DNA from: a virus
Direction: 5' to 3' (one strand)
DNA length: 31,637 bases
Virus record (IMG/VR): IMGVR_UViG_3300017917_001270
Span: 1-31,637 of that record
The first letter of the stretch is position 1; each line of letters opens with the position of its first letter. Both the position numbers and the translations under genes were made by a program. Under the pieces are notes generated by a model that made no database searches, had not been told where the DNA came from, and was given only the letters and a program-made list of their open reading frames with translations. Positions 2,815 to 31,637 of the stretch are shown in pieces.

Positions 2815-2991
2815 ATGAATGAGAATACTGCAATATTAGAAGTAATGTTAGAATTAGCAGAGGATGAAAATTCAGAATTGAAAGCTGAAAACGATGCTCT
2901 ATGGAACTATGTTCAGTATTTACAAAAGAAAAACAACGAATTATTAAAAGAATATAATTATTTATTAAACCCGGATAACAGAAAAAACTAA
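2815..2991 (+). CDS. Small acidic coiled-coil protein (58 aa)
   Basis: A 58-codon ORF starts one base after the fibre stop in the TAATATG arrangement seen at many junctions here. The protein reads MNENTAILEVMLELAED and then a Leu/Glu/Lys heptad-like stretch to the end, so it is probably one long helix. I do not recognise the family. The tight coupling to the fibre gene suggests a co-translated accessory such as a fibre assembly chaperone or adaptor, but that is inferred from position only. It resembles the coiled-coil ORF at 29245 in size and character. Confidence 0.6.
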   Translation: MNENTAILEVMLELAEDENSELKAENDALWNYVQYLQKKNNELLKEYNYLLNPDNRKN

Positions 2992-3004
2992 AAAATAATT
3001 TTCA

Positions 3005-3020
3005 TTTGTTATCTATATTA
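3005..3020 (+). promoter_or_regulatory. Candidate phage late promoter (copy A)
   Basis: TTTGTTATCTATATTA lies 14 bases before the ATG of the scaffold gene. The same sequence, with few changes, precedes other late gene groups at 5492, 13134, 16881, 27772 and 30246. No TTTG lies at the right distance upstream for a host vegetative promoter. The upstream flank is A-rich. Confidence 0.6.
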
Positions 3021-3798: not shown

Positions 3799-4785
3799 AT
3801 GAAAAAATTACAAAAGTTCGCAGGTGAACAACCAGTAATCACAACTACCTACGCAGGTGAGTTCGCTGGTCAGTACATCGCAGCAGCATTATTAAGTGCT
3901 AAAACTTTGGATAACAAATATGTGACTATCATGCCAAACGTGAAGTACAGAGAAGTAATCCAAAAAATCGCAGTTGCAAACATCGTTAACGATGCATCTT
4001 GTGACTTCACAACTTCAGGTTCAGTAGCATTATCTGAAAGATTAATCACTCCAAAAGAATTACAAGTTAACTTACAATTATGTAAGCAAAACTTCGTACA
4101 ATCTTGGGAAGCATTACAATTAGGATATTCTGCATTTGACGAAATTCCAAAATCATTCACAGATTATTTAATCTCTTATGTTGGTGGTAATGTAGCTCAA
4201 GCAACAGAAATTTCTATTTGGCAAGGTAACAACGGAACTAACGGTCAATTCGGTGGTTTCATTCCAGCATTCTCTTCTTCAGTAGCATTTGATACAGCAG
4301 GTACAAAAGTATTGCAAGCTAAAGCTAGTGGAAGTGGTGCAGTTATCTCTGGTTCAGTAGATGCAACTAATGTATTAGGTAAATTAAACGATGTAGTAGC
4401 AACTATTCCTAACACAGTTTATGGTAAGGAAGATTTGTTATTGTATGTTTCTACAAATGTAGCAAAAGCTTACCAACAAGCATTAGCTGGTGGTGCAATT
4501 GGTGCTAACGGTTGGAACAACCAAATGAACGTGGGTGATAAACCTTTCAACTTCAATGGTATTGAAATCGTAATGTGTCCAGGTATGCCAGATTCTAACA
4601 TCGTAGCAGCACAAAAATCTAACTTATTCTTTGGCACGGGCCTTTTAAGTGATTATAATGAGGTTAAGGTATTAGATATGAGTGATATCGATGGTTCTCA
4701 AAACTTCAGAATCATTATGAGATACACTGCAGGAACTCAATTCGGTATCGGTCAAGATATCGTTTGGTACGCAGCAACTTACTAA
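3799..4785 (+). CDS. Major capsid protein, HK97-fold type
   Basis: The 328-residue protein follows the scaffold gene by 26 bases. The pattern fits the capsid proteins of Bacteroidetes phages: an N-terminal arm (MKKLQKFAGEQPVITTTYAG), a helical region with LQLCKQNFVQSWEALQLG (spine-helix-like), a central A-domain-like part and a C-terminal part with FNGIEIVMCPGMPDSNIVAA, SNLFFGTGLLSD and FRIIMRYTAGTQFGIGQDIVWY. It uses many C-ending codons (AAC, TTC, ATC, TAC), unlike the fibre genes, as expected for the most abundant virion protein. A GC-rich hairpin follows the stop. I infer the HK97 fold from length, order and these segments, not from a structure comparison. Confidence 0.8.
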   Translation: MKKLQKFAGEQPVITTTYAGEFAGQYIAAALLSAKTLDNKYVTIMPNVKYREVIQKIAVANIVNDASCDFTTSGSVALSERLITPKELQVNLQLCKQNFVQSWEALQLGYSAFDEIPKSFTDYLISYVGGNVAQATEISIWQGNNGTNGQFGGFIPAFSSSVAFDTAGTKVLQAKASGSGAVISGSVDATNVLGKLNDVVATIPNTVYGKEDLLLYVSTNVAKAYQQALAGGAIGANGWNNQMNVGDKPFNFNGIEIVMCPGMPDSNIVAAQKSNLFFGTGLLSDYNEVKVLDMSDIDGSQNFRIIMRYTAGTQFGIGQDIVWYAATY

Positions 4786-5394: not shown

Positions 5395-5420
5395 TTCAGT
5401 ATAAACACAACAACATATTA

Positions 5421-5456
5421 AATACTCTATCATTTATTTGGTAGAGTATTTTTTTT
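5421..5456 (+). terminator. Intrinsic terminator after the capsid/tail-tube operon
   Basis: AATACTCTATC (5421-5431) pairs with GGTAGAGTATT (5440-5450) over 11 bp including one T-G wobble, around an 8-base loop. It runs into eight T residues (5449-5456). It separates the capsid operon from the portal operon, which has its own candidate promoter 36 bases later. Confidence 0.9.
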
Positions 5457-5491
5457 GTCGTATATTAATGATAAGTAAAATTAATTCCGTA

Positions 5492-5507
5492 TTTGTTATC
5501 TATATAC
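5492..5507 (+). promoter_or_regulatory. Candidate phage late promoter (copy B)
   Basis: TTTGTTATCTATATAC matches copy A in its first 14 bases. It stands between a strong terminator (5421-5456) and the first gene of the portal operon (5535), exactly where a promoter is needed. Confidence 0.65.
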
Positions 5508-5906: not shown

Positions 5907-7202
5907 ATGGATAAAAGTAAATTTATACAAAACTTTTCAATAGTAAATCTAGCACAGCAGGATGTTCCTTTTGTGAATGAAGATGTTAAAAGTAGAACTC
6001 AATGGGTACAAGTTGGATTAAAACATACAGATGATTTTTTCTTTATGTTGAATGCAGCATACAATACATCTACAACAAATGCAGCGTGTATTGAAGGTAT
6101 CTCTGATTTAATCTATGGTAAAGGTTTATATACAAAGAACGAAGGTTTCGCAGAAGCATTAAAAAAGATTGTACCGCAAGAATGTTTGAAGAAAGCAATC
6201 TTTGATTTGAAATTGTTTGGTAATGCAACACTGCAAGTAGTTTGGAATAAAGAACATACAAAGATTGTAAAGTTCTATCACGCTCCTGTTCAAAACTTTA
6301 GAGCAGAGAAGTTAAGAGGTATTCCAAAGATTGAAAATTATTACTATTGTACAGATTGGTTTGATGCAAAGGCACAAAGACATAAAGTTAAAGTTCCTGC
6401 ATTTGGAACATCTAACGAACAAACAGAATTACTTTGGATTAAGAATTATTCTCCAGGTTATTTCTATTACTCATTACCTGATTGGTTCTCAGCATTACAA
6501 TTTAGTGAAGTAGAAGCAGAATTGAGTAACTTACATATTAACAATATCCAAAATGGTTTCTTACCAATGGTTATGGTGAACTTTAATAATGGTACACCTG
6601 GTCCTGAAGAAAGACAAACTATTGAAGGATTGATTGGTGCTAAGTTTACCGGAACGAGAAACGCTGGTAGATTTATGACAACATTCAACGATGATCCAGC
6701 AACTAAACCAACAGTTGATGTAATTCAAATTGATAATCTACATGAAAAATTCAAATATGTTGCAGAATACGCACAAGATAGAATCCTTGTAGCACATAGA
6801 GTTACTTCACCTTTATTATTTGGTATTAGAACAGAAAATAATGGATTTAGTTCTCAAAGTGAAGAAATGATGACGGCGTATTCAATCTTACAAACAATGA
6901 CAATCTCTCCATTCCAAAACTTAATCTTAAATTCTTTAGAAGAAGCCTTAAGTGAAGGTGGTTGGGAAGATACACAATTATACTTTGACCAATTAACTCC
7001 ATTGGCATTACTTTCACAGCAAGCAGAAGATACAGATAAATCAGTTGAAGAAGTAGCAGATGAAACTAATAAACAATTAGAAAATCCTTCTACAACAGAT
7101 ATGAATCAGGATGAAGAAACTATGGAATCAGATGTTCATCCTAATGTATCAATGAGTTCAGCATTTTTTGAAAGAGAATACGAAATTATAAAACAAAAAT
7201 AG
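5907..7202 (+). CDS. Portal protein
   Basis: This 431-residue protein has the plan of a phage portal: an N-terminal region with LNAAYNTSTTNAACIEGISDLIYGKGL, a wing-like region (LFGNATLQVVWNK, IVKFYHAPVQNFR), then FTGTRNAGRFM and the helical HRVTSPLLFGIRTENNGFSSQSEEM stem region. The Gln/Glu-rich C-terminus is probably flexible. Twelve copies would form the ring through which the terminase (28092) packages DNA and to which the connector (7206) binds. The length fits the family. The gene lies far from the terminase genes in this linear view. A circular map keeps them apart too, with the fibre and capsid genes between them. Confidence 0.88.
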   Translation: MDKSKFIQNFSIVNLAQQDVPFVNEDVKSRTQWVQVGLKHTDDFFFMLNAAYNTSTTNAACIEGISDLIYGKGLYTKNEGFAEALKKIVPQECLKKAIFDLKLFGNATLQVVWNKEHTKIVKFYHAPVQNFRAEKLRGIPKIENYYYCTDWFDAKAQRHKVKVPAFGTSNEQTELLWIKNYSPGYFYYSLPDWFSALQFSEVEAELSNLHINNIQNGFLPMVMVNFNNGTPGPEERQTIEGLIGAKFTGTRNAGRFMTTFNDDPATKPTVDVIQIDNLHEKFKYVAEYAQDRILVAHRVTSPLLFGIRTENNGFSSQSEEMMTAYSILQTMTISPFQNLILNSLEEALSEGGWEDTQLYFDQLTPLALLSQQAEDTDKSVEEVADETNKQLENPSTTDMNQDEETMESDVHPNVSMSSAFFEREYEIIKQK

Positions 7203-12748: not shown

Positions 12749-13108
12749 ATGGCAAAACAACCTACATTAAGAGATATAGCACAACAATTTGAATCTTTAG
12801 CTAAACTAAACATCTCAAGGGCTCCTAATAGAGCAATTAAGACGGGTAGGTTAAGAGATTCTATTAAAGTTAAACAAACACGCACAAACAAAGCAGGTGG
12901 TGCCATTTTCGACCTAGATACGGTTTATTACGGTGTATTTGTTGAAGAGGGAACTTCTAAAATGAAAGCTAGACCATTCGCAGCACAGGCAGCGAATTCT
13001 GATCAATTTAGAAGTATGGTTGATGATTATATGAAATCGATTGTAGAAGTTACTTTAATGGAAGGTGTTAAGAAAACAGATAAAACATTAAAGAAGTATT
13101 ATAAGTAG
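12749..13108 (+). CDS. HK97 gp10-like head-tail connector / tail completion protein
   Basis: The 119-residue protein has the HK97 gp10 signature: an N-terminal helix, TGRLRDSIKV, then YYGVFVEEGTSKMKARPFAAQA, followed by a long C-terminal helix. In that family the protein sits between the head adaptor ring and the tail and is needed to join them. It is odd that it comes after the fibre and lectin genes and not next to the adaptor at 7206. This suggests that the fibre block was inserted into a head-tail joining operon. The length is normal for the family, and the gene closes its operon before candidate promoter C. Confidence 0.8.
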   Translation: MAKQPTLRDIAQQFESLAKLNISRAPNRAIKTGRLRDSIKVKQTRTNKAGGAIFDLDTVYYGVFVEEGTSKMKARPFAAQAANSDQFRSMVDDYMKSIVEVTLMEGVKKTDKTLKKYYK

Positions 13109-13133
13109 TACATTCAATAATTTTCTTTTTGAG

Positions 13134-13149
13134 TTGGTTATCTATATTA
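13134..13149 (+). promoter_or_regulatory. Candidate phage late promoter (copy C)
   Basis: TTGGTTATCTATATTA differs from copy A at one base and lies 12 bases before the ATG at 13162, the first gene of the tail-tip operon. The 53-base gap contains little else. Confidence 0.62.
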
Positions 13150-16344: not shown

Positions 16345-16866
16345 ATGGCTCAAAGAATACCAATATACATACCAACTTATATTAATAACGCAGAATACGA
16401 ACCAGCAAGAGTTCAACCTCGTTTATTATTTTTTAATGGTACTTTAGAATGTGAACGATATTTTTTTGAAAGTGGTAGTTTAACACAACCTGGTGTTTCT
16501 ATGCAACAATTTGCATTTCCTTATTTTGATAACTACAATGTAGTAAGTGGTAGTTTCCCTACCACAAATAGTAAATCATTACTATTTAATAATGAAGGAG
16601 CATCTTATGGTTCAACACCAATAAATAATTTATATACAGATTATTGGAGTACATATATTACTTTACTTTACAATCCTAAAACAAGATTGATAAATTGTAA
16701 GGCGATTATTCCATTAGCAGATTATTTTAAGATGAGTTTGAATGATGTAGTAAACTTCAGAGGAAACTATTATCATTTAAGAGCAATTAATAATTATTCA
16801 TTGAAGACTGGTGATTGTGATATACAATTATTAGGTCCAATAATTCCAGATGCATTGAGTTCATAA
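16345..16866 (+). CDS. Putative tail-tip protein, companion of the 14327 product
   Basis: The 173-residue protein ends with YWSTYITLLYNPKTRLINCKAIIPL, YFKMSLNDVVNFRGNYYHLRAINNYSLKTGDCDIQLLG. I recall this pattern as the C-terminal part of single large tail proteins in other Bacteroidetes phages, whose N-terminal part resembles the 14327 product. Here the two are separate genes 11 bases apart, so this may be a natural split of one tail-tip protein. It is likely all-beta. It precedes candidate promoter D and the tape measure. Confidence 0.55.
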   Translation: MAQRIPIYIPTYINNAEYEPARVQPRLLFFNGTLECERYFFESGSLTQPGVSMQQFAFPYFDNYNVVSGSFPTTNSKSLLFNNEGASYGSTPINNLYTDYWSTYITLLYNPKTRLINCKAIIPLADYFKMSLNDVVNFRGNYYHLRAINNYSLKTGDCDIQLLGPIIPDALSS

Positions 16867-16880
16867 TTAAAAACTGTTAA

Positions 16881-16896
16881 ATTGTTATCCATATAT
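16881..16896 (+). promoter_or_regulatory. Candidate phage late promoter (copy D)
   Basis: ATTGTTATCCATATAT matches the motif at 13 of 16 positions and lies just after the stop of the 16345 gene. It overlaps the first ATG of the next small ORF (16895), so transcripts from it would more naturally serve the tape measure at 17044. Confidence 0.5.
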
Positions 16897-17044
16897 GATT
16901 AAAAATATTTTAGATTTACTTTCGTTAGAAAACTACTATGGTGTATCAAAGAATATTGATATAGCAAAAGGGTATTACGCAATTCCTAAATCATTTTCAG
17001 ATGGTAAAAAACAATTAAAAAGAGTAATCAAATCTAAAAAGTAA
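16895..17044 (+). CDS. Small basic protein upstream of tape measure (49 aa)
   Basis: A 49-codon ORF, MIKNILDLLSLENYYGVSKN to a basic end (QLKRVIKSKK), overlaps the tape measure start by one base (TAATG). Gene packing supports translation. The family is unknown to me. Candidate promoter D overlaps its ATG, so if transcription starts there the ORF would have almost no leader, and translation may depend on a transcript from farther upstream. Its role could be a small tail assembly factor, inferred from position only. Confidence 0.5.
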   Translation: MIKNILDLLSLENYYGVSKNIDIAKGYYAIPKSFSDGKKQLKRVIKSKK

Positions 17045-18648
17045 TGGCAGAGAATACAACTACATATAAAGCCGTAATTGAGACCGAAGTAAAAGGTACG
17101 AAAGAAATCGATGAGATGAATAAAAAAGCCGAAGAAGGTGGTGAAAAATTCAAATCATTGCGTTCTCAAATTAGAGAAACTACTGTCAAATTACAAGAAT
17201 TAGCAGATGCGGGTAAAACAGGAACAAAGGAGTTCAAAGAATTATCTAATCAGTTAGATGATTTAGGTGATCAACAAAAGAAAGTTGCATTCCAATCAGG
17301 TCAAATTGAAGATAAGTTAGCGGCATTACCTGGCCCTGTTGGACAATTAGGTAAAGGTTTTGCATCGGCAAAAGAAGCAGTAGATACATTTGGTACAGGA
17401 TTAGCAGTTGCAACGGGTGGTTTAACACTTATCATTGGTGCAATTGTGGCAATGAAAGAAGCATTATCTAAAACTGCGGAAGGTCAACAAACATTAAATA
17501 GAGTTAATGAAGCATTCAGTAAGATAATGGCTCCGTTATTTGCATTGTTTGAGAAAGTTGGTATTCCAATTTTTGAAAAGTTTGCAGATACAGTAAGTTG
17601 GGTTGGTGATAAAATAAATAAAGTTGTAACTCTAATGGGTGTATCTCAAAAGAAAGTACAAGAGATTGCAACTGAAGGTAATAAAGCATTCTATGATGCA
17701 GCACAGAAAGATTTAGAGAATATGAAAACTGTGTTGGATATGCAGAAGGCTGCAGATGAGAAAGCTAAACAACAGGCTGCAGAAAGAAATAGAAAATATT
17801 TAGAAAAGAAAGCAGAACAAGAAAGGGAAGCGTGGGAAGCAGAGAAGAAGTTAGTTGATGATCAGATAAAGTATTACGAAGCGCAAAAGAAGAAGAGAGA
17901 GAAATTAGTTGCAGAACCAATCGGTACTGATGGCATGACACCAACAGAAAGAGAGAAGGCATTAAAAGCAGAAGAAGCTAGAAAGAAATATTTTGTTGAA
18001 AAGTTTGCAAAGAGTAAAGAAGAATTAGAGAAGAAGTTATCAAATGGTACTATTAAGATTGCACAATCAACTGCATTAGCAGAAGAAGCAGCAACTAAAA
18101 AATCTGTTGATAATAGAACTAAATTAGAAAAATTCTTAACTTCAGAAAAGAAGAAACAATTAGATGCACAATTAGTAGCAGCAAAAGCAGCATTAGAATT
18201 AAGTGCAGCATTGGTTGATGAACATAGTGCAGCTGGTAAAGCAATTGCAGTAACATTAGCAATCATTAACACTTATCAAGGTGCAACGGCTGCATTGGCA
18301 TCACTTCCTCCTCCATTTAGTTATATAGCAGCAGCGGCAACAGTAGCAGCAGGTTTATTGAATGTAAATAAAATTCTTACAACACAAATTCCTTCAGCAA
18401 AAGGTGGTGGAGCAGTAGCAACGGGTGGTGGAGTAAGTACACCTGATATAGCAGCACCAACATTACCAACGATTGCAGCACCTGAAGTAAATGTGACTGG
18501 TGGACAAAATCCATCATCATCAATACAAAATAGTATTAATGCAGCTAGACAACCAATCAAAGCATATGTTGTAAGTACTGAAGTTTCTTCACAACAGGCA
18601 TTAGATAGAAGAACAAATAGAGCAGCTACCTTAAGTGGTGGGTATTAA
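17044..18648 (+). CDS. Tail tape measure protein
   Basis: This 534-residue protein begins with a charged coiled-coil region (KEIDEMNKKAEEGGEKFKSL, TVKLQELADAGKTGTKEFKEL), a plan common in tape measure proteins. A hydrophobic stretch at about 115-137 (GLAVATGGLTLIIGAIVAM) and another at about 396-442 (AIAVTLAIINTYQGATAALASL) flank a long Lys/Glu/Ala coiled coil (about 215-395). The end is Gly/Ala/Pro-rich and flexible. At roughly 1.5 Angstrom per residue the tail would be near 80 nm, a short siphovirus tail; this estimate uses the general rule only. I see no enzymatic domain. Confidence 0.85.
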   Translation: MAENTTTYKAVIETEVKGTKEIDEMNKKAEEGGEKFKSLRSQIRETTVKLQELADAGKTGTKEFKELSNQLDDLGDQQKKVAFQSGQIEDKLAALPGPVGQLGKGFASAKEAVDTFGTGLAVATGGLTLIIGAIVAMKEALSKTAEGQQTLNRVNEAFSKIMAPLFALFEKVGIPIFEKFADTVSWVGDKINKVVTLMGVSQKKVQEIATEGNKAFYDAAQKDLENMKTVLDMQKAADEKAKQQAAERNRKYLEKKAEQEREAWEAEKKLVDDQIKYYEAQKKKREKLVAEPIGTDGMTPTEREKALKAEEARKKYFVEKFAKSKEELEKKLSNGTIKIAQSTALAEEAATKKSVDNRTKLEKFLTSEKKKQLDAQLVAAKAALELSAALVDEHSAAGKAIAVTLAIINTYQGATAALASLPPPFSYIAAAATVAAGLLNVNKILTTQIPSAKGGGAVATGGGVSTPDIAAPTLPTIAAPEVNVTGGQNPSSSIQNSINAARQPIKAYVVSTEVSSQQALDRRTNRAATLSGGY

Positions 18649-18661
18649 AAAATAATTTGAA

Positions 18662-18677
18662 ATTGTTAATATTGTAT
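18662..18677 (+). promoter_or_regulatory. Weak match to the late promoter motif (copy F)
   Basis: ATTGTTAATATTGTAT lies at the ATG (18676) of the protease gene. It keeps TTGTTA but loses TATCTATA, so it may be chance or a degenerate promoter. Because it touches the start codon, a transcript from it would have no leader. Confidence 0.25.
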
Positions 18678-22192: not shown

Positions 22193-22224
22193 TTTGGTAA
22201 TGTCATATGTTTTTCGTATCTTTG
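22193..22224 (+). promoter_or_regulatory. Host-type (Bacteroidetes) promoter for the early operon
   Basis: TTTG (22193-22196), 20 bases, then TATCTTTG (22217-22224) match the Bacteroidetes vegetative consensus TTTG/TAnnTTTG. It lies 24 bases before the ATG at 22249. The match is strong at the -7 site. Confidence 0.75.
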
Positions 22225-22248
22225 ATATATAAACAAACATTAAAAAAT

Positions 22249-22518
22249 ATGGCACAATTTACACAAACTGAATTAAAGTATCTTATTACAAAGTTAAGAG
22301 AACTTAAATCGGATTACTACAAAAAACACGAAGAAGGATTTATTCCTAAACAAAACAATCGTAGATTAACACAAAAAGATATGTGGAGTATAATCCATTA
22401 CGGAAATTATATTAATGTACAAATGTTGTTGGAATGGGTAGATAGTTTACAAAAACCTAAAAGTAAACCATTACCATTTGCACCTAAAAAATTAGCTAAA
22501 AGAAAATCTAAAAAATAA
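22249..22518 (+). CDS. Early protein of unknown function (89 aa)
   Basis: I start this ORF at ATG 22249 (MAQFTQTELKYLITKLREL), not at the earlier ATG 22207, because the host-type promoter (-7 at 22217-22224) lies inside that longer form. The 89-residue protein is helical and basic, with a Lys-rich end (KKLAKRKSKK). It is the first gene of the early block, where phages often encode host-takeover proteins. I do not recognise it and cannot assign a function. Confidence 0.65.
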   Translation: MAQFTQTELKYLITKLRELKSDYYKKHEEGFIPKQNNRRLTQKDMWSIIHYGNYINVQMLLEWVDSLQKPKSKPLPFAPKKLAKRKSKK

Positions 22519-22524
22519 ACAAAT

Positions 22525-22770
22525 ATGAAAAAGAAAGTAATTACAAAAAATGAGATAATGAAAGTGTACGCATTAACAATAGATACACAACCATTTTATT
22601 CAACAATGGGTTCTTCTCATAATGAAAGAATGATTAGATGGTTTGAAAGAGAAGGATATAATATTACAGAAAAATCTATCAATAATATTAACAGTTATAT
22701 TAAAAGAAGAAAAGAAATAATGGAAGAACTAATGGAATTATCTTTAATGAATTTGAAAAATAATAAATAA
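22525..22770 (+). CDS. Early protein of unknown function (81 aa)
   Basis: An 81-residue, mostly helical protein with a basic start (MKKKVITKNEIMKVYALTID) and helix-rich middle (NERMIRWFEREGYNITEKSI). It may contain a small DNA-binding fold, but no clear helix-turn-helix can be named. It sits between early genes with a 6-base gap upstream and 1 base downstream. Confidence 0.5.
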   Translation: MKKKVITKNEIMKVYALTIDTQPFYSTMGSSHNERMIRWFEREGYNITEKSINNINSYIKRRKEIMEELMELSLMNLKNNK

Positions 22771-22771
22771 T

Positions 22772-23098
22772 ATGAAAACAATAGAAGAAAGATTAACGGA
22801 TTTAGAAAGGAGATTTCGTCCTATTGAGTATGTATTATACCGAAGTGACTTTGAGCCCCTTATTGAGAAAGCTAAGGGTGTAGAATTAAATTCTAAAGGT
22901 AATACCTACATAGTATCAGTAACCTTTGAAACTGATAAAGGAACTTACACTAAAGAGTTTGAACAAAAAGCGTATACAAACAAACAGGCAGAGTTCTTAT
23001 GTGAGAGGGATATAATGCATCCTAATTTGGGTAACCTAAAAAAAGCTCGTAAGATAAGATGGTATCGTATATTAAGTAAACAATCAAAATTAAAATAA
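22772..23098 (+). CDS. Early protein of unknown function (108 aa)
   Basis: The 108-residue protein reads IEERLTDLERRFRPIEYVLY, then a beta region (NTYIVSVTFETDKGTYTKEF) and a helical C-terminus with KARKIRWYRIL. No family is recognised. It directly precedes the AAA ATPase gene (5-base gap), so the two may act together. Confidence 0.5.
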   Translation: MKTIEERLTDLERRFRPIEYVLYRSDFEPLIEKAKGVELNSKGNTYIVSVTFETDKGTYTKEFEQKAYTNKQAEFLCERDIMHPNLGNLKKARKIRWYRILSKQSKLK

Positions 23099-23103
23099 AA
23101 GTT

Positions 23104-24006
23104 ATGATAAAATTCAAATCAGAAGAATTAAATTTATTAGTACAGGCTGGTAAATTAGTTGATAATAATAGTAGAGAATTTATTAAAAGTGCATTAGGTT
23201 TAACTAAAAAGAAAGTAGAAGCATCGAGACACACAATTCTTTCAGGTCCTCCTGGTGTTGGTAAAACCTATGGTACACAAGATGAATGTAATAAGGGTAA
23301 TGTAAAGTATATTAAAATAGAACCAGGATCATCTGATGTTAATATTGCAATAAAACTAGCAGTTGCAGTTTATAAATTAAAAAAGAATGAAGAATTAATT
23401 GTTCTATTAGATGATGCAGATGATTTAGTTTTTAGTGATTATACAACATTGAATAAATGGAAAATTGCAATGGCTGATACTGATTACGAACAAGGTATTA
23501 TTCCAACCTTTAATCATTCGGTATCTATGACAAACACACTATCTAATTTAGAAAAACAAATAGCTGGTGGTGATAAAGATAAAAAAATTGTTGTTGATGC
23601 AATTAAACATTTTACACCAACTGATAGTTTAGGATTATCTATTCCAACGGATAGAGTTAGATTTATAGTATTATGTAATTTAGATTTGGAAGATGCTAAA
23701 GTATTTAGAAGTGGAAAAATGAAATCAGCAGTTGCTCCTGTAATTGATAGAAATGAATATAAAAGAATTAATGTAAGTTGGGAAAAACAATGGGGTTGGA
23801 CTGCATATGTGTTAGGTGAAACTCAACCATTTGATACATACAAACTTAATATGGAACAAAAAGTAGAATTAATGAATTGGATGTATAGTAAATGGGATAA
23901 ATTGAGAAGTACATCATATAGGACAGTTAGAAGATTAGCTGCAGCTATGATTAATGAACCAGACACTTATTTAGATAAATGGCAGGAACAATTAAAAGGA
24001 CATTAA
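23104..24006 (+). CDS. AAA+ family ATPase
   Basis: The 300-residue protein has a Walker A motif GPPGVGKT at residues 48-55, Walker B LIVLLDDAD at about 98-106, and a sensor-like strand FIVLCNLDLED later. Such motifs show ATP binding and hydrolysis by an AAA+ domain. The C-terminal half has a helical lid region (SKWDKLRSTSYRTVRRLAAAM) with arginines that could be sensor 2. Phage AAA+ proteins in early operons often load helicases or remodel DNA complexes. Because no replicative helicase or primase is present here, recruiting host enzymes is possible. I cannot say which partner it has. Confidence 0.75.
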   Translation: MIKFKSEELNLLVQAGKLVDNNSREFIKSALGLTKKKVEASRHTILSGPPGVGKTYGTQDECNKGNVKYIKIEPGSSDVNIAIKLAVAVYKLKKNEELIVLLDDADDLVFSDYTTLNKWKIAMADTDYEQGIIPTFNHSVSMTNTLSNLEKQIAGGDKDKKIVVDAIKHFTPTDSLGLSIPTDRVRFIVLCNLDLEDAKVFRSGKMKSAVAPVIDRNEYKRINVSWEKQWGWTAYVLGETQPFDTYKLNMEQKVELMNWMYSKWDKLRSTSYRTVRRLAAAMINEPDTYLDKWQEQLKGH

Positions 24007-24007
24007 T

Positions 24008-24631
24008 ATGAAAAAGAAAAACTTAAATGATACTTTAGATGATTTATTATCAAATATAAATTTACCAACTGATGATGAAATCAAAGAAGAAACTAAAGCT
24101 GCTAAAGTTAGTTTAGCACATAAAGGTAGAACTCATAGTGAAAAAACTAAACTAATATGGTCTCAAAAAAAGATAGGACATAAAAGAGATAAACAATCAG
24201 TTAAAAAAAGTATTGAAGGTACTAAAAAAACTAAATGGATACAATTATTAGAAAAATATACTAAAAAAAATGTATTAACTGCAATTAAAAATAATGGAAA
24301 TCATCAAACAAATATTTGTAAAGAATTGGGGTGTAATTCACCTACATTAAAAAAACTCTGCAAACATTATCAGATTATTATTCCAAAAAAATCTAATATT
24401 GAAAGAACTGAATATGCTAAAACTAAACAATCAAATCCAATATTAGTTTGGAAGTGTAGTAAAAGAGAACCATATAAAGCTATTGGTAAACCAACTGAAT
24501 ATTATAGTGTAAGTGAATGTATTAGACAATTTCAATTAAACGGAATTAATCTACACAAAGGTAATTTATTAAGAAATGAAAAAAATAATACACCTTACAA
24601 CGGATATTTTTTCGAAAAAGTTAAAAAATAA
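24008..24631 (+). CDS. NUMOD-like DNA-binding protein without a nuclease domain
   Basis: The 207-residue basic protein contains an N-terminal NUMOD3-like segment (about 37-72: AHKGRTHSEKTKLIWSQKKI), a Fis-type helix-turn-helix (about 84-120: VLTAIKNNGNHQTNICKELG, NSPTLKKLCKHYQI) and a C-terminal NUMOD1-like segment (about 150-205: EYYSVSECIRQF and PYNGYFFEKV). These are the DNA-binding modules of homing endonucleases, yet I find no HNH or GIY-YIG catalytic motif. It could be a homing-endonuclease remnant now used as a regulator or replication protein. It follows the AAA ATPase by one base. Confidence 0.6.
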   Translation: MKKKNLNDTLDDLLSNINLPTDDEIKEETKAAKVSLAHKGRTHSEKTKLIWSQKKIGHKRDKQSVKKSIEGTKKTKWIQLLEKYTKKNVLTAIKNNGNHQTNICKELGCNSPTLKKLCKHYQIIIPKKSNIERTEYAKTKQSNPILVWKCSKREPYKAIGKPTEYYSVSECIRQFQLNGINLHKGNLLRNEKNNTPYNGYFFEKVKK

Positions 24632-24632
24632 T

Positions 24633-24663
24633 TTTGATAATACTTATATTAGTAGTATCTTTA
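24633..24663 (+). promoter_or_regulatory. Host-type promoter before the replication gene
   Basis: TTTG (24633-24636), 19 bases, then TATCTTTA (24656-24663) match the Bacteroidetes consensus except for the last base. The gene at 24714 then starts with a good Shine-Dalgarno AAAGGAG (24699-24705), rare in this window. Confidence 0.6.
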
Positions 24664-24713
24664 AGATATGATACACATATTATAAACACAAACAAAACAA
24701 AGGAGAAAAAATT

Positions 24714-25202
24714 ATGGCAAAAGATCCAGCAGTGTTATTCTACACACAAGATTTTTTAGTAGGAACACTAACAATGACTGATGAACAAATGGGTAGGTAT
24801 ATTTACTTACTATGTTTACAACATCAAAAAGGTAAACTAACTTTATCTGACCTAAAATCTAAACTGAAAGAAGATGATATAGAAGTAGCAGAGAAGTTTC
24901 CTCTACAAGCTGATGGTTATTACTATAACTTAAGAATGTATGAAGAAGCAATTAAAAGAAAAAATTATACTGAAAGTAGAAGAAATAATAGAAAAAAGAA
25001 AGATGATGTAGATGTTCAGCTACTTAAACAATCATATGTTAATCGTATGGAAAATGAAAATGAAGATGTAAATGTAAATGTAAATGATATTGTAAATAAA
25101 AATGTAAATAGAAATGAAGTATTAACTAAAGTTATAAGCGAAGCGATGAAACAAAAACCAAAACAATCAGAAATAAATGAATTAGATAATTTGGTTAAGT
25201 AA
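24714..25202 (+). CDS. DUF1376-like phage replication (replisome organiser-like) protein
   Basis: The N-terminus (MAKDPAVLFYTQDFLVGTLT, MTDEQMGRYIYLLCLQHQKG) matches the winged-helix start of DUF1376-type replication proteins, found in many phages and related to initiators that bind an origin and load a helicase. YESRRNNR-like basic residues follow. The C-terminal half is low-complexity Asn/Val/Glu/Asp (ENENEDVNVNVN) encoded by a hexanucleotide repeat (25048-25119). The start has a true Shine-Dalgarno 8 bases upstream. It probably works with the AAA ATPase to start replication through host enzymes. Confidence 0.7.
   Translation: MAKDPAVLFYTQDFLVGTLTMTDEQMGRYIYLLCLQHQKGKLTLSDLKSKLKEDDIEVAEKFPLQADGYYYNLRMYEEAIKRKNYTESRRNNRKKKDDVDVQLLKQSYVNRMENENEDVNVNVNDIVNKNVNRNEVLTKVISEAMKQKPKQSEINELDNLVK
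25048..25119 (+). repeat. Hexanucleotide repeat tract in the replication gene
   Basis: Units like AATGAA, AATGTA and GTAAAT repeat in a 6-base register. The encoded stretch is a hydrophilic linker. In lambda and some other phages the origin lies inside the initiator gene as iterons, so this AT-rich tract is an origin candidate. The units are short, so simple linker expansion is equally possible. Confidence 0.5.
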
Positions 25203-25217
25203 AAAAAATAAATTATA

Positions 25218-25233
25218 TTTGTTATATATGGTA
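25218..25233 (+). promoter_or_regulatory. Motif copy upstream of the candidate small RNA (copy H)
   Basis: TTTGTTATATATGGTA matches the late motif at its first eight bases and in the TATAT core. No coding start follows closely; a structured element and terminator follow instead. Confidence 0.4.
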
Positions 25234-25332
25234 GAAGCTGGTCCTAGTGCCATTGGACTCGGATTCTCCTTATAATATTGAGAGGAAAATAATACTCTCC
25301 CTTCCCCTATCGGTTCTCGGTAGGGGTTTTTT
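25234..25332 (+). ncRNA. Candidate structured small RNA ending in a terminator
   Basis: The gap between the replication gene and the GIY-YIG gene holds about 100 bases of hairpins: AGAA (25233-25236) with TTCT (25264-25267) around an inner GTCC/GGAC pair (25241-25244 and 25255-25258), then GAGAG (25280-25284) with CTCTC (25295-25299), then a strong terminator (25304-25332). No ORF of useful size lies inside. A promoter-like motif (25218-25233) precedes it. This arrangement of promoter, structure and terminator fits a small RNA of about 95 nt. I cannot assign it to a known family; the exact 5' end is inferred. Confidence 0.5.
25304..25332 (+). terminator. Intrinsic terminator
   Basis: CCCCTATCG (25304-25312) pairs with CGGTAGGGG (25318-25326) over 9 bp, one T-G pair, around GTTCT, and runs into six T bases (25327-25332). 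Very GC-rich for this genome. Confidence 0.92.
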
Positions 25333-25343
25333 ATTTCAAAATA

Positions 25344-25375
25344 TTTGTTCGTTTGGAAAATTTGGAGTATATTTA
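25344..25375 (+). promoter_or_regulatory. Possible host-type promoter for the GIY-YIG gene
   Basis: TTTG (25344-25347), 20 bases, then TATATTTA (25368-25375), a fair match to TAnnTTTG. It lies after the terminator and 34 bases before the ATG at 25410. Another TTTGG-like element nearby makes the -33 choice uncertain. Confidence 0.45.
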
Positions 25376-25409: not shown

Positions 25410-25913
25410 ATGAAAAGATGTACTAAATGTTCGGAAATAAAACCCTACGAACAATTCTCCAAAAACAGAGCAGCAAAGGATGGATTACAATGGCATTGTA
25501 AAACATGCAATAACAAAGATAATCAAAGGTTCAGAGATGAAATAGATCCTGAATATATGAGTAGATGGTTTTCTAAACACAGAAATCATTGGAGAGAATA
25601 TATGAATGATTATAGTAGAGTTGGTAATACAAATACTATCTACGCAATCACAGCTCCTAATGGTGATGTATATATTGGATTTACACAAAGAAAGAAATAC
25701 TTTAGATTAAACGAACATAAGAAATATTATAGAATAGGAAGTAAAAATAAATTACCCTTACTTTGGGAATCGTTTGATAGATACGGAATAGATAATCATA
25801 AATTTGAAGTTCTAAAACAATTTGAAGGAACTAAAAGTGAAGGTATGGAAATAGAAACTAATTTAATTCAGTTCTATAAATCTATCAACAAATCATTAAA
25901 TGTAAAAGATTAA
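25410..25913 (+). CDS. GIY-YIG endonuclease with N-terminal zinc finger
   Basis: The 167-residue protein joins a Cys4 zinc finger (C4-x2-C7 and C30-x2-C33) to a GIY-YIG domain: TIYAIT (I77, Y78; the usual first Gly is Thr), VYIG (87-90) and R99/H103 in RLNEHKK, then a helix with EIETNLIQFYKSIN that should carry the metal-binding Glu. Such enzymes are free-standing homing endonucleases in many phages. A four-codon ORF (ATG at 25399, MAQL) overlaps the start as ATGA, so translation is probably coupled to it. The enzyme probably arrived as a mobile cassette and cuts related phages lacking it. Confidence 0.72.
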   Translation: MKRCTKCSEIKPYEQFSKNRAAKDGLQWHCKTCNNKDNQRFRDEIDPEYMSRWFSKHRNHWREYMNDYSRVGNTNTIYAITAPNGDVYIGFTQRKKYFRLNEHKKYYRIGSKNKLPLLWESFDRYGIDNHKFEVLKQFEGTKSEGMEIETNLIQFYKSINKSLNVKD

Positions 25914-25914
25914 T

Positions 25915-26100
25915 ATGTGCATAATTAAATTAGGAAACATTGTAGAAGGATTAATCAATGTAGTGACATTAGGTTGGGGAAAAGAATTGGCAACTAAAAT
26001 AGCTCATAAACTAGGTTATGAAGATTGCGGATGTGAAAAACGCCGCATCTTCCTTAACCGAATTGTTGGGTGTAAAGAAATAAAGATAAAATTGTTTTAA
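25915..26100 (+). CDS. Conserved small phage protein with CGC motif (61 aa)
   Basis: The protein has an N-terminal helical part (IVEGLINVVTLGWGKELATK), then AHKLGYEDCGCEKRRIFLN and a terminal GCKEIKIKLF. I recall similar short proteins (theme GxGKxxAxxxAxxLGYxDCxCxxR) in phages. The Cys pair could bind metal or join a partner. The function is unknown. It is coupled to the GIY-YIG gene (1 base) and to the next (1-base overlap). Confidence 0.6.
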   Translation: MCIIKLGNIVEGLINVVTLGWGKELATKIAHKLGYEDCGCEKRRIFLNRIVGCKEIKIKLF

Positions 26101-26465
26101 TGGCGTATCAAAAGGAATTAAGTACTGAATGTAAAAATTGTGGGGTTAAATGGAATAAAGATTTAAGTAACAAATATCCGAAAAGAGCAATTTGTTATCC
26201 TTGCAAACAATTAGAATATGATGATAGAAAGGAACAATATAAAAACAATAGATTCAAAAGGGGTATGAATCGATTTGAAAAACATAAACCATTTAAGATT
26301 GAAAACCGAAAACATATCCATAAAGCAGTAAATGCAGAATTAAGACCGTTAAAAGATAGAAGTGAGATAAGAGAGTTCTTAAGAAAAAGATTTGATGAAT
26401 TACTATTAGATACGGCATTGTGGGATTATATAAATGATACAGATATAGAAAATAAAAACAAATAA
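26100..26465 (+). CDS. Small zinc-finger protein (121 aa)
   Basis: An N-terminal zinc ribbon is seen: C11-x2-C14 and C32-x2-C35, with a 17-residue spacer. The middle is highly basic (RFKRGMNRFEKHKPFKIENR), followed by a helical acidic C-terminus. A zinc ribbon plus basic region fits a nucleic-acid binding protein, possibly a regulator. It starts on the last base of the preceding stop. Confidence 0.6.
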   Translation: MAYQKELSTECKNCGVKWNKDLSNKYPKRAICYPCKQLEYDDRKEQYKNNRFKRGMNRFEKHKPFKIENRKHIHKAVNAELRPLKDRSEIREFLRKRFDELLLDTALWDYINDTDIENKNK

Positions 26466-26466
26466 T

Positions 26467-26754
26467 ATGATAGAAGTACAAAGTACATTAGACGGAACAG
26501 TCAAAGAAATCGAAGTAAACAAAGCTTATGTAGTAGATTTCACAAAATTAAATTCGGTAAATGATTTAATGTTAGTTTTAAGTGGATTAGGAATAACTTA
26601 TCCAGGTAATCATCCATTAATCCAACATCTTAAACCATTTCTTAATTTGGATAATCCTATTGATTTACAACCTCAACCTCAACCAAAGAAAGCAGAATTT
26701 ATTCCATTAAAGAAAACTGATATAGGAGATAGAGTATTTAATAAGGAGAAATAA
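26467..26754 (+). CDS. Unknown protein (95 aa)
   Basis: The 95-residue protein has an acidic/beta N-terminus (MIEVQSTLDGTVKEIEVNKA), a helix (VNDLMLVLSGLGIT), then a Pro/Gln stretch (LQPQPQPKKAEF). No family is recognised. It ends one base before the next gene, whose start follows an AAGGAG-like sequence inside this gene. Confidence 0.55.
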   Translation: MIEVQSTLDGTVKEIEVNKAYVVDFTKLNSVNDLMLVLSGLGITYPGNHPLIQHLKPFLNLDNPIDLQPQPQPKKAEFIPLKKTDIGDRVFNKEK

Positions 26755-26755
26755 T

Positions 26756-26992
26756 ATGAGAGAGAATATTATAGTACCATTAACAGATGAAGAATACAAA
26801 CAACTAAAAGAGACAGTTGATAGTATTGAAAGTTATTTACCTGAAAACAAAGCACCTTATGTTTGGGATATGTTCAATAGATTAAGAGGTGAGAATGAGA
26901 ATAGACCTTGTACATGTGGAAGTGCAGGAGCACATTGGGCAAGAGCGGTAACTTATTTAAGAGAATATATTAAGGAGAAAGAGGGTGTTTAA
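26756..26992 (+). CDS. Small conserved-looking protein with CTCGSAG motif (78 aa)
   Basis: The protein is helical with a single CxC pair, RPCTCGSAGAHWARAV, in the C-terminal half, then TYLREYIKEK. I recall the theme CxCGSxGxHWxxAV in short phage proteins, function unknown. AAGGAG in the preceding gene gives it a Shine-Dalgarno. Its end overlaps the possible GTG start of the sigma-like gene. Confidence 0.5.
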   Translation: MRENIIVPLTDEEYKQLKETVDSIESYLPENKAPYVWDMFNRLRGENENRPCTCGSAGAHWARAVTYLREYIKEKEGV

Positions 26993-27002
26993 TAGCGGTA
27001 GT

Positions 27003-27533
27003 ATGGAAGAAAACAAAGAGAGATTAGAAGTTCTCTATACCAAACACCATAAGTTATTTATGGGTACAGCATATAATATCACAAAGAATGAAGTAATAGC
27101 AGAAGATTTAGTTGGTGATTTATATGTGTATTTAGGAGAGAAGATAAGAGAGAAGTTATGGTATAAGGATAGTTTTAATTTACTTTATTGTATTAATTTC
27201 CTACAAACTCGTTGGTTAAACAAAGTAAAGAGAGATAAAAAAATTAGATATACTTCGGAGATTAATGATAATATAAGTGATACAGAATATAATATAGATT
27301 TTGATGAAAAGTTAGATAGAGCATATGAAGAAGTAGTAGAAGAAGTAAAGAGATTACAAACTACGAATATGTGGACATCAGCTAAATTATATTCTCTTTT
27401 TTGGATAGAAAACCCAAATATGACATTAAAAGAATTATCAGAAACTATCGGTATATCTAATTCAACCTCTTTCATACACATTAAGAAAGTAAAAGAGCAT
27501 CTAAAGAAAAACATTAATAATCCATTCAAATGA
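27003..27533 (+). CDS. Phage sigma factor-like protein (sigma-70 family, ECF-size)
   Basis: Residues about 8-45 resemble sigma region 2 (LYTKHHKLFMGTAYNITKNE, VIAEDLVGDLYVYLGEKI). About 55-80 (NFLQTRWLNKVKRDKKIRY) could be the DNA-melting part. Residues about 140-170 resemble region 4, a helix-turn-helix (TLKELSETIGISNSTSFIHI). Length 176 fits an ECF-type factor. The ATG at 27003 is my choice; a GTG at 26985 gives 6 more residues and has AAGGAG at a good distance, so either may be used. It probably directs host RNA polymerase to the repeated late motif. Confidence 0.68.
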   Translation: MEENKERLEVLYTKHHKLFMGTAYNITKNEVIAEDLVGDLYVYLGEKIREKLWYKDSFNLLYCINFLQTRWLNKVKRDKKIRYTSEINDNISDTEYNIDFDEKLDRAYEEVVEEVKRLQTTNMWTSAKLYSLFWIENPNMTLKELSETIGISNSTSFIHIKKVKEHLKKNINNPFK

Positions 27534-27679
27534 CAAACGAAGAACAAATTAAATCTATTGTAGAGCAAATCAAAGCTAATTTAAGTATTGAAGAATTAGA
27601 TGATTTAGAAAGACAATACAATGAGATGTTAAAAAGAATTAAAGAGAACGAAGAGAATAAAAATAAAAAAGAAGAATAA
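27530..27679 (+). CDS. Small coiled-coil protein coupled to the sigma-like gene (49 aa)
   Basis: The start overlaps the sigma-like stop as ATGA. The 49-residue protein is one charged helix (LSIEELDDLERQYNEMLKRI) with a Lys/Asn/Glu tail. ATGA coupling suggests a partner such as an anti-sigma or co-activator, inferred from position only. It ends 6 bases before the tRNA. Confidence 0.5.
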   Translation: MTNEEQIKSIVEQIKANLSIEELDDLERQYNEMLKRIKENEENKNKKEE

Positions 27680-27685
27680 TCCCAA

Positions 27686-27757
27686 TGTTGAATAGTGTAA
27701 CGGTCAGCACCACAGATTTTGATTCTGTTAGTTATGGTTCGAATCCATATTCAACTA
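27686..27757 (+). tRNA. tRNA-Gln (anticodon TTG)
   Basis: A full cloverleaf is seen: acceptor TGTTGAA/TTCAACT (T1-T72 mismatch at the end, as the first pair is weak in many tRNA-Gln), D stem GTGT/GCAC, anticodon stem ACAGA/TCTGT with loop TTTTGAT (anticodon TTG at 27719-27721), T stem TATGG/CCATA with loop TTCGAAT. No CCA is encoded. It reads CAA, which the Gln-rich fibre and early genes use almost always. Confidence 0.92.
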
Positions 27758-27771
27758 CAAAATCCATTTCG

Positions 27772-27787
27772 TTGGTTATATATGTAT
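27772..27787 (+). promoter_or_regulatory. Candidate phage late promoter before the terminase genes (copy G)
   Basis: TTGGTTATATATGTAT is a weaker match (TTGGTTAT conserved, later bases changed), 24 bases before the small terminase ATG (27812) and just after the tRNA. Confidence 0.45.
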
Positions 27788-27811: not shown

Positions 27812-28108
27812 ATGGCAAAGTTTGAGAAAGGACATCAATTGAGTAAGGGAAGACCGGTGGGTGCATTGAATAGGTCTACCGAACAAATGAAATTAACATT
27901 GGCTAGAGCAGCAAATAAAACTTTAGATACAATTGGTGAAGATTTAGAAAAGATAAGAAAAGAGAATCCTGAAAAGGCAATTGAACTATCTCTAAAGTTA
28001 ATGGAGTATGTAATGCCGAAGTTAAGTAGAACTGAAATGAAAGCAGAGATAGAACAAAGGGTACAACAAATATCAGTAAACATAACACGCAGTGGAAGTA
28101 ACGATTAA
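27812..28108 (+). CDS. terS: Terminase small subunit
   Basis: The 98-residue protein starts with FEKGHQLSKGRPVGALNRST, a basic N-terminus typical of small terminase-related proteins (DUF5681-like), then a helical region (DTIGEDLEKIRKENPEKAI) and a C-terminal helical tail. It lies directly before the large terminase gene, overlapping it by 17 bases. Small terminases bind the packaging site and guide the large subunit. It is short for the family, so the assignment rests mainly on position. Confidence 0.68.
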   Translation: MAKFEKGHQLSKGRPVGALNRSTEQMKLTLARAANKTLDTIGEDLEKIRKENPEKAIELSLKLMEYVMPKLSRTEMKAEIEQRVQQISVNITRSGSND

Positions 28109-30088: not shown

Positions 30089-30231
30089 CGAATGATGATA
30101 TAACGAAGATAGAAGAAGTAGAGAACCAACCATTAGAGAAGTGTTTATTATTATTAGCATATAGAGCTGATACACAGGTGTTAGAAAATTTAATTCAAAC
30201 AGAAGCATTAGCAAAGATTAAAGCTTCATAA
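29962..30231 (+). CDS. Tail assembly chaperone, T-like extension reached by -1 frameshift
   Basis: In the -1 frame the ORF encodes 89 residues after the T9 run: YQFVNGLIERYPELFGEDNG, then RFGKKWGSYTAIVSLANDDI and PLEKCLLLLAYRADTQVLEN. I recall a similar domain (KWGWY...LAxGDI...CLxxLxY) after tail chaperones in related phages, so it is a real coding sequence. The in-frame ATG at 29950 could in theory start it alone, but it has no good leader there. Alternatively the T9 count could be a sequencing error, which would make one ORF of the whole gene. Confidence 0.6.
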   Translation, partial: YQFVNGLIERYPELFGEDNGFASEHQARFGKKWGSYTAIVSLANDDITKIEEVENQPLEKCLLLLAYRADTQVLENLIQTEALAKIKAS

Positions 30232-30245
30232 AATTTGTTTAGGTG

Positions 30246-30261
30246 TTTGTTATCTATTACA
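30246..30261 (+). promoter_or_regulatory. Candidate phage late promoter (copy E)
   Basis: TTTGTTATCTATTACA matches the motif in its first 12 bases and lies 11 bases before the ATG at 30273. It begins 14 bases after the chaperone stop. Confidence 0.55.
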
Positions 30262-30562: not shown

Positions 30563-31637
30563 ATGGCTTTAAGTAAAGTACAATTAGAACAAGTAAATCA
30601 GACAAACTTTCCTGATAATACCCAACAATTAATTACACCACAGTTATTAAGAGAATTTAATACTGATATGATTGTGTCATTAGTTGATGAGAATACATAC
30701 AACGCAGATAGTGCAAGTTGGAACGCACAGATTGCTTATTTAGATCCATCTGGCTCAATCATAGCATTAAACGCATTAGAAGCATTTACAGCATCAGCGG
30801 AAATAAGATTAACTGCATTAGAACAAACTTCTCAATCACTTAATCAATTCACAGCATCACAGGCAGTGAGTAATTCTTATTTTGCAACAACAGGTTCAAA
30901 TACTTTTACTGGCAATCAAACAATAGCAAAAGAATTTCATATCAACACTAATGGTATCTATTGGAATGATAGTACAGTTGGTTATAATAATTTAGAAATA
31001 ATCAATAGTGGATATGGTAATGTAGATATAGCGGCATTAAATGGTAGAGTAAGAATAGTTAATTCACCTTTAACATTGACGGGTAGTGCATTAACTTCTT
31101 CTAACGATATTTCTACATCAGCAAATATATATGCAGCAAACTTATTAGATACTGCATCTTTTAATACATTTAGTTCTTCAGTATCAACACAATTTAGTGC
31201 GAGTACATTCTTTAGTGGAACTCAATACAAAGCAGATAGTGCATCTTTCAGTAGCAGAATAGTAGCAGCAGAAAATACTGGCTATGTAACAACTGCATCA
31301 TTTAACTCTTATACACAATCAGTAGCAAACACAATAGCAACATTAGCAACTACTGCAAGTGTAACAACATTAAGTGCGAGTATATTCCAAACAGATGCAA
31401 CACAGAGTAACGCAATAACAAATAATAGTTCTTCATTCGCAACTTCTATTAGTGCAAGTAATTTTAATATTACAAACAATAGTGCGAGTGTAGCGGTAAC
31501 AATAAATAATTTAAGTAGTAGTATCTATCAAACAGATACAACTCAAAGTAATCAAATCTCAGCATTAAGTGCAAGTAACGCATTTGACCATAGTAGATTT
31601 GCAACAACTGGCTCTAATACATTTAATGGTAATCAAA
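30563..31637 (+). CDS. Tail fibre protein, 5' part (runs off the window end)
   Basis: The ORF starts MALSKVQLEQVNQTNFPDNT, then QQLITPQLLREFNTDMIVSL, a fibre N-terminus that I recognise in phages of this type. It continues with coiled-coil repeats (SAEIRLTALEQTSQSLNQF, SVTTLSASIF-like) and ATTGSNTFTGNQ at 30884-30919 and ATTGSNTFNGNQ at 31601-31636. The window stops one base into the next codon. Joining that base to bases 1-2 gives AGT (Ser) and continues in frame as SLYVTNATIVNL, so this is probably the missing N-terminal part of the gene at 3-2813 (1,295 residues in all). Confidence 0.8.
   Translation, partial: MALSKVQLEQVNQTNFPDNTQQLITPQLLREFNTDMIVSLVDENTYNADSASWNAQIAYLDPSGSIIALNALEAFTASAEIRLTALEQTSQSLNQFTASQAVSNSYFATTGSNTFTGNQTIAKEFHINTNGIYWNDSTVGYNNLEIINSGYGNVDIAALNGRVRIVNSPLTLTGSALTSSNDISTSANIYAANLLDTASFNTFSSSVSTQFSASTFFSGTQYKADSASFSSRIVAAENTGYVTTASFNSYTQSVANTIATLATTASVTTLSASIFQTDATQSNAITNNSSSFATSISASNFNITNNSASVAVTINNLSSSIYQTDTTQSNQISALSASNAFDHSRFATTGSNTFNGNQ

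Follow-up and report, generated by a model that had tools for sequence, protein, structure and literature searches.

Gene content and setting of the window

The window studied here, by which we mean the whole stretch of DNA that was analysed, is a single virus record of 31,637 bases (IMGVR_UViG_3300017917_001270), in which one strand carries nearly all genes. Since the contigs related to it are 20-35 kb long, and one of them, of 32,093 bases, appears to be cut within the terminase gene, each end carrying part of TerL, the window probably represents a nearly full genome. The closest TerL matches are found in Flavobacterium and Bacteroidales phages (35-38% identity), the early promoters are of the Bacteroidetes sigmaA form, and the record is that of an uncultured virus of Bacteroidetes-type bacteria. 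A search of INPHARED yielded no cultured phage relative and a single weak match, MT835631. This entry was deposited as a bacteriophage; its inspected stretch (L122:5827-13393) looks bacterial, in that consecutive genes encode an ECF sigma, a FecR-like protein and a TonB-dependent receptor, adjoined by a sensor kinase.

Along the window lie a major-capsid candidate at 3799, the portal gene at 5907, a tail-completion gene at 12749, a conserved ORF of 49 codons at 16895 that stands before the tape measure at 17044, a head-maturation protease (Peptidase_S78_2) at 18676, the likely small terminase at 27812, TerL at 28092 and a long ORF at 30563. The gene under study, at 27003-27533 on the plus strand, is assigned by profile match and fold to an ECF-type sigma factor of 176 amino acids with regions 2 and 4. 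Small uncharacterised genes adjoin it (25915-26992 and 27530), and the operon that contains it is led by an endonuclease gene (25410-25913), whose product resembles HNH/endonuclease VII in its N-terminal part and GIY-YIG enzymes in its C-terminal part.

A divergent ECF-type sigma factor and its family

A sequence-only reading of the window had taken this ORF to encode a sigma-70-like protein with regions 2 and 4, and the profile search and the fold agree with it. Over residues of about 8-171 the ORF matches TIGR02937 with E=8.2e-7 (28.8 against a curated cut-off of 42.9), so that homology to sigma factors is present, and it matches the Bacteroidetes ECF model TIGR02985 over residues 8-171 with E=2.4e-6, also below the curated cut-off; Pfam Sigma70_r2 gave 16.5 bits, under its gathering cut-off of 24 bits. 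Having missed the curated Pfam and NCBIfam cut-offs, which are an annotation convention and no defining trait of the sigma-70 superfamily, the protein is, as judged from its sequence, a divergent member of the ECF group. Searches of Pfam and PDB returned no significant sigma match from sequence alone, and the best PDB profile match, an MHC chain at E=0.01, was judged spurious.

An AlphaFold2 model built from 16 relatives reached a pLDDT of 81, and a fold search of the PDB with it returned ECF sigmas (H, L and E) as the top matches, families absent from that list not being counted as excluded. VIA-align of the model with M. tuberculosis SigH gave a Z of about 9.9, and modelled region 4 superimposed on region 4 of E. 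coli SigE with 69 residues aligned at 2.5 A. A free hinge linking the two modelled domains is the best explanation for the high rmsd of the whole alignment. Regions 2 and 4 are present and regions 1.1 and 3 absent, as the ECF group demands. On the predicted fold and the full-length profile match, the ORF is assigned to the ECF group of the sigma-70 superfamily. Strong conservation among relatives is found for SFN..Y...F and NKVKRDKK of region 2, and the recognition helix of region 4 (SKSTxF...K) is nearly constant in sigmas of about 50% identity. No anti-sigma gene was recognised next to the sigma gene, and in a scan that covered part of the ORFs of the window the sigma alone showed homology to transcription initiation factors.

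Two scans returned 80 viral contigs with relatives of the sigma at 37-83% identity, and none of the GTDB genomes searched encodes one. A related TerL is encoded by 27 of the 28 sigma-bearing contigs searched, and wherever both genes were located the sigma lies directly upstream of TerL. Distant homologues also occur in 24 of 80 FpV9-like terminase outgroup loci with E from 5e-11 to 2e-4 (L165, L171, L186, L192, L208 and 19 more), upstream of TerL where inspected. No repeated (family) motif was found in these outgroup loci, whose fragments are short, and so such a sigma does not always accompany many promoters.

A two-box promoter motif

Sites resembling TTTGTTATCTATATTA lie at 3005, 5492, 13134 and 30246, a variant, TTGTTATCCATATATG, at 16882, and TGGTTATATATG at 27773, all of them intergenic and in the sense orientation. 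With at most three mismatches the literal 16-mer has 8 matches against 3.6 expected, a count reached in 4 of 100 shuffles; by itself this is modestly above chance, and what is decisive is the position of the sites, a second box and conservation. De novo EM applied to each genome gave clear motifs of the TTGTTAAA type in several relatives, unlike the TTGTTATCTATA of the window, and start-codon context or noise elsewhere, for which reason the sites were anchored on TTGTTA instead. Collecting the intergenic T(T/G)GTTA of 25 genomes, with near-duplicates removed and starts nearer than +9 filtered out, we obtained 101 sites.

These sites share a second box, tTnAnTA(C/T)A, at positions -22 to -14, which is at a fixed spacing upstream of TTGTTA. 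The A at -16 occurs in 97 of the 101 sites (96%) versus 263 of 793 TTGTTA controls (33%; 331 coding and 462 antisense), with P~6e-37. Further conservation is seen at +6 to +8 and as T/A at +12/+13, and the controls lack it as they lack the second box; the motif is not equally common inside genes, where copies of TTGTTA come without the second box. The -10 box consists of T(T/G)GTTA and a genome-specific 3' half, which is TCTAT here and mostly AAAT in the relatives. The 16-base motif that the earlier reading treated as a unit is thus real, but it makes up only the downstream half of the promoter, which has a second, upstream box that was overlooked. The sites precede gene groups only, in strict sense orientation, and do not stand before every gene. 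A search for consensus E. coli sigma70 promoters gave 133 matches, below the shuffle counts, and was disregarded.

Seven predicted late promoters

The two-box sites of the window lie at 3006, 5493, 13135, 16882, 18663, 27773 and 30247, all on the plus strand, and orthologous genes share the promoter in 6-23 genomes per class. The host TAnnTTTG element is absent from all seven, and the sequence-only reading was also right that the phage sites are without the host -33 TTTG. Behind these predicted late promoters lie the genes of packaging, portal, capsid, tail, protease and the tape-measure region, while the early genes are without the motif.

Five of them bear out the earlier placement of the motif before 3035, 5535, 13162, 27812 and 30273. 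The promoter at 2984..3019 (-35-like box 2984-2992, -10 box 3006-3014, predicted start 3019) precedes 3035 and the major-capsid candidate and is kept in 22 genomes; that at 5471..5506 (boxes 5471-5479 and 5493-5501, predicted start 5506) follows a terminator-like hairpin at 5420-5451, precedes 5535 and the portal gene, and is kept in 18. The one at 13113..13148 (boxes 13113-13121 and 13135-13143) lies after the tail-completion gene and before 13162, 14327 and 16345, with 12 genomes in its class, and that at 30225..30260 (boxes 30225-30233 and 30247-30255) precedes 30273 and the long ORF and is kept in 23. Before the likely small terminase and TerL stands the promoter at 27751..27786, with the -35-like box AACTACA and the -10 box TGGTTATAT at 27773. 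This -35-like box overlaps the 3' end of a tRNA-Gln (27686-27786 region); among the 25 genomes a tRNA was seen beyond the window in one relative only (G016), where it is also Gln.

The remaining two abut start codons. The motif said to precede 17044 is a real site (16860..16895; boxes 16860-16868 and 16882-16890), but it directly adjoins the conserved 49-codon ORF, whose ATG lies 13 nt downstream and coincides with the predicted start, 16895. The earlier list of sites was also incomplete, and we add a candidate at 18641..18676 (boxes 18641-18649 and 18663-18671) with a weaker -10 box, TTGTTAATA, in which the 5' core TTGTTA is present and the TCTATA half is missing. Its predicted start falls at 18676, on the ATG of the protease gene. 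The promoter is present before the orthologues in 13 relatives, and an orthologous site is found in 14 genomes, with the ATG at +13 in 9 of the 14 and at +13 to +16 in 13.

Over the 101 sites an A stands at +13 in 84%, so that transcription likely starts at the A located 13 nt past the first T of the -10 box. Start codons after the site are commonest at exactly +13 (11/101) and at +25 to +27, with few at +17 to +21. If +13 is the start, the protease gene and the ORF at 16895 would be leaderless; in F. psychrophilum, leaderless mRNAs make up 5.5% (PMC9723704).

Host-type promoters and a small RNA in the early region

A pattern search of the window for TTTG-N18-21-TA(H)(H)TTT(G/A) gave four sense matches (22193, 24633, 25190 and 25344) and two antisense ones, and the four sense promoters, recognised by consensus only, are confined to the early region 22193-25375. 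Host-type promoters before early genes had been noticed previously, though three rather than four. They are TTTG-N20-TATCTTTG (22193..22224) before the early operon from 22249, TTTG-N19-TATCTTTA (24633..24663) before 24714, TTTG-N20-TATATTTG (25190..25221), which belongs to a small RNA and is kept in relatives, and TTTG-N20-TATATTTA (25344..25375) before 25410, which heads the gene run 25410-27679 containing the sigma gene; all are on the plus strand. TAnnTTTG occurs at 22217 and 25214, and the final base is A instead at 24656 and 25368, in agreement with the published sigmaA -7 element TAnnTTTG at -12 to -5 (PMC9723704, PMC6847099).

The small structured RNA (25226..25333, plus strand; fold z=-2.3) ends in an intrinsic terminator (25304-25326) and shows in 7 relatives a covarying stem enclosing an invariant GCCATT loop, together with a second stem; it has no Rfam match at gathering scores. 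Homologues were located at L027:8235, L043:3356, L049:3891, L050:8336, L056:3136 and L058:7721. The sequence-only reading had placed a copy of the phage motif before this RNA, put at 25234. That site, at 25218, is a chance overlap, and with its host promoter at 25190-25221 the RNA is ruled out as a member of the late class.

Specificity and concerted drift of the motif

A family PWM gave 145 sense versus 14 antisense matches over 811 kb of family loci, and 8 sense versus 3 antisense in 501 kb from 56 terminase-related loci in which no sigma was detected; the motif is thus at background in terminase relatives lacking this sigma, as it is in six phages and a bacterial contig, the seven further records used for comparison. 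As the PWM was partly trained on genomes of the family loci, the leave-one-genome-out scan provides the unbiased figure, and there the matches are mostly intergenic and sense, with few antisense. Only 2 of the intergenic sites of the window score above 12 bits, because its TCTATA half of the -10 box is a minority variant.

The 3' half of the -10 box, which is TCTATA in the window, TTA in relative G010, TATATT in relative G011 and AAAT in most genomes, follows the genome and not the gene class. Across gene classes the similarity of this half is 3.34/6 within a lineage versus 2.74/6 between lineages, and the within-lineage value was reached in 0 of 2000 class-preserving permutations. Such concerted drift within a genome is predicted by one trans-acting phage factor touching the -10 box, and it could in principle reflect a host factor that differs between hosts.

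A probable phage sigma for late transcription and its alternatives

We consider it highly probable that the phage ECF-type sigma redirects the host RNA polymerase to dedicated two-box late promoters. A dedicated phage sigma with a matching late promoter, as proposed in the sequence-only reading, is the best-supported account, in which we infer the contact between the two from the sequences. Host sigmaA would transcribe the early region through TTTG-N19/20-TAnnTTT(G/A), including the operon from 25410 to 27679, in the late part of which the sigma gene sits. The sigma would then join the host core enzyme and read the two-box promoter, region 4 contacting the -35-like box tTnAnTA(C/T)A and region 2 the -10-like box. 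Its first target would be the adjoining small terminase gene at 27812, and further targets would be the head, portal, tail, tape-measure, protease and fibre-region units, giving a cascade from host sigmaA through the early operon with the sigma to the late operons. The pairing of sigma and promoter is kept in dozens of related viruses and is probably the switch for late particle assembly.

That the motif is read by a host sigma, either sigmaA or a host ECF sigma, while the sigma-like protein does other work, is improbable to us. The spacing of the boxes does resemble that of ordinary bacterial promoters, and hosts of this type have several ECF sigmas, seven in F. psychrophilum (PMC9723704); however, the sites are without the TAnnTTTG that defines host sigmaA promoters, while clear sigmaA promoters stand elsewhere in the same phages, the -10 half drifts in concert genome by genome, and the motif falls to background in the sigma-less terminase relatives and the seven comparison records. 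We give slightly less weight still to an activation of host sigmaA by another phage DNA-binding protein or a sigma-appropriation pair, with the sigma-like protein an accessory at most. T4-type activators act through the host sigma in the manner of sigma appropriation, and the small uncharacterised genes beside the sigma gene might encode such factors; against this, both boxes are at sigma-like positions, the variable part falls in the -10 box, where region 2 would make contact, and the partial scan of the ORFs revealed no second initiation-factor homologue. It is hardly credible that the repeats are signals for translation, replication or packaging and not promoters, for although 13-60 nt separate them from the start codons that follow and the leaders are A-rich, as is typical of hosts without Shine-Dalgarno sequences (PMC6847099), the second box at a fixed spacing, the sense-only orientation and the placement before gene groups alone speak for promoters.

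Relation to known phage and bacterial systems

A late-gene switch by a small phage relative of sigma is represented by T4 gp55, whose late promoters consist of a -10 element only and require gp33 and the sliding clamp. The proposed system resembles it in the late switch by a small sigma relative and differs in that the promoter of the window has two boxes. In phage phiEco32, phi32_gp36 with the host core enzyme drives middle and late genes (PMC8948821). It shares with our proposal a phage sigma using the host core enzyme, but its promoter is one element (tAATGTAtA) and gp36 is without region 4 homology, whereas the window has two boxes and a region 4 fold. The nearest in kind is SaPh711_gp47 of Salmonella phage 7-11, a sigma that reads bipartite late promoters (PMC8948821). 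In both, a phage sigma goes with one bipartite promoter repeated ahead of late gene groups, and in the window the early and sigma genes lie behind host-type promoters, by consensus only, as in the gp47 type; consensus, host phylum and phage type differ, and the two are likened by function.

Bacteroidetes ECF sigmas (TIGR02985), which are among the best family-level matches, share the two-domain build without regions 1 and 3. They use promoters with a CGT-type -10, for example SM6 of F. psychrophilum (PMC9723704). The DNA motif of the window differs, its GTTA core appearing to sit where ECF promoters have CGT/GTC, and its sigma is phage-encoded beside the terminase. The kind of system is already known from phage 7-11, while the family and the promoter class are new, and for Bacteroidetes phages the literature searched yielded no case in which a phage sigma had been linked to its promoter.

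Implications

The predicted regulon is complete, with sigma, consensus, targets and early/late split, across dozens of uncultured phages. Somewhat short of an even chance, in our estimate, is the further proposal that the sigma and the full set of late promoters have undergone repeated joint rewiring, with a constant -35-like box and all -10 boxes of a genome moving in step, and that transcription by the sigma begins precisely on the AUG of the protease gene and on that of the ORF before the tape measure. If true, this would mean that leaderless late mRNAs are conserved in hosts that otherwise have few mRNAs of this kind. The natural series of sigma and -10 variants lets one ask how region 2 changes its specificity, and the system would give an orthogonal pair of sigma and promoter for laboratory Bacteroidetes strains. 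The promoter regulons of phages can be read from metagenomic sequences alone.
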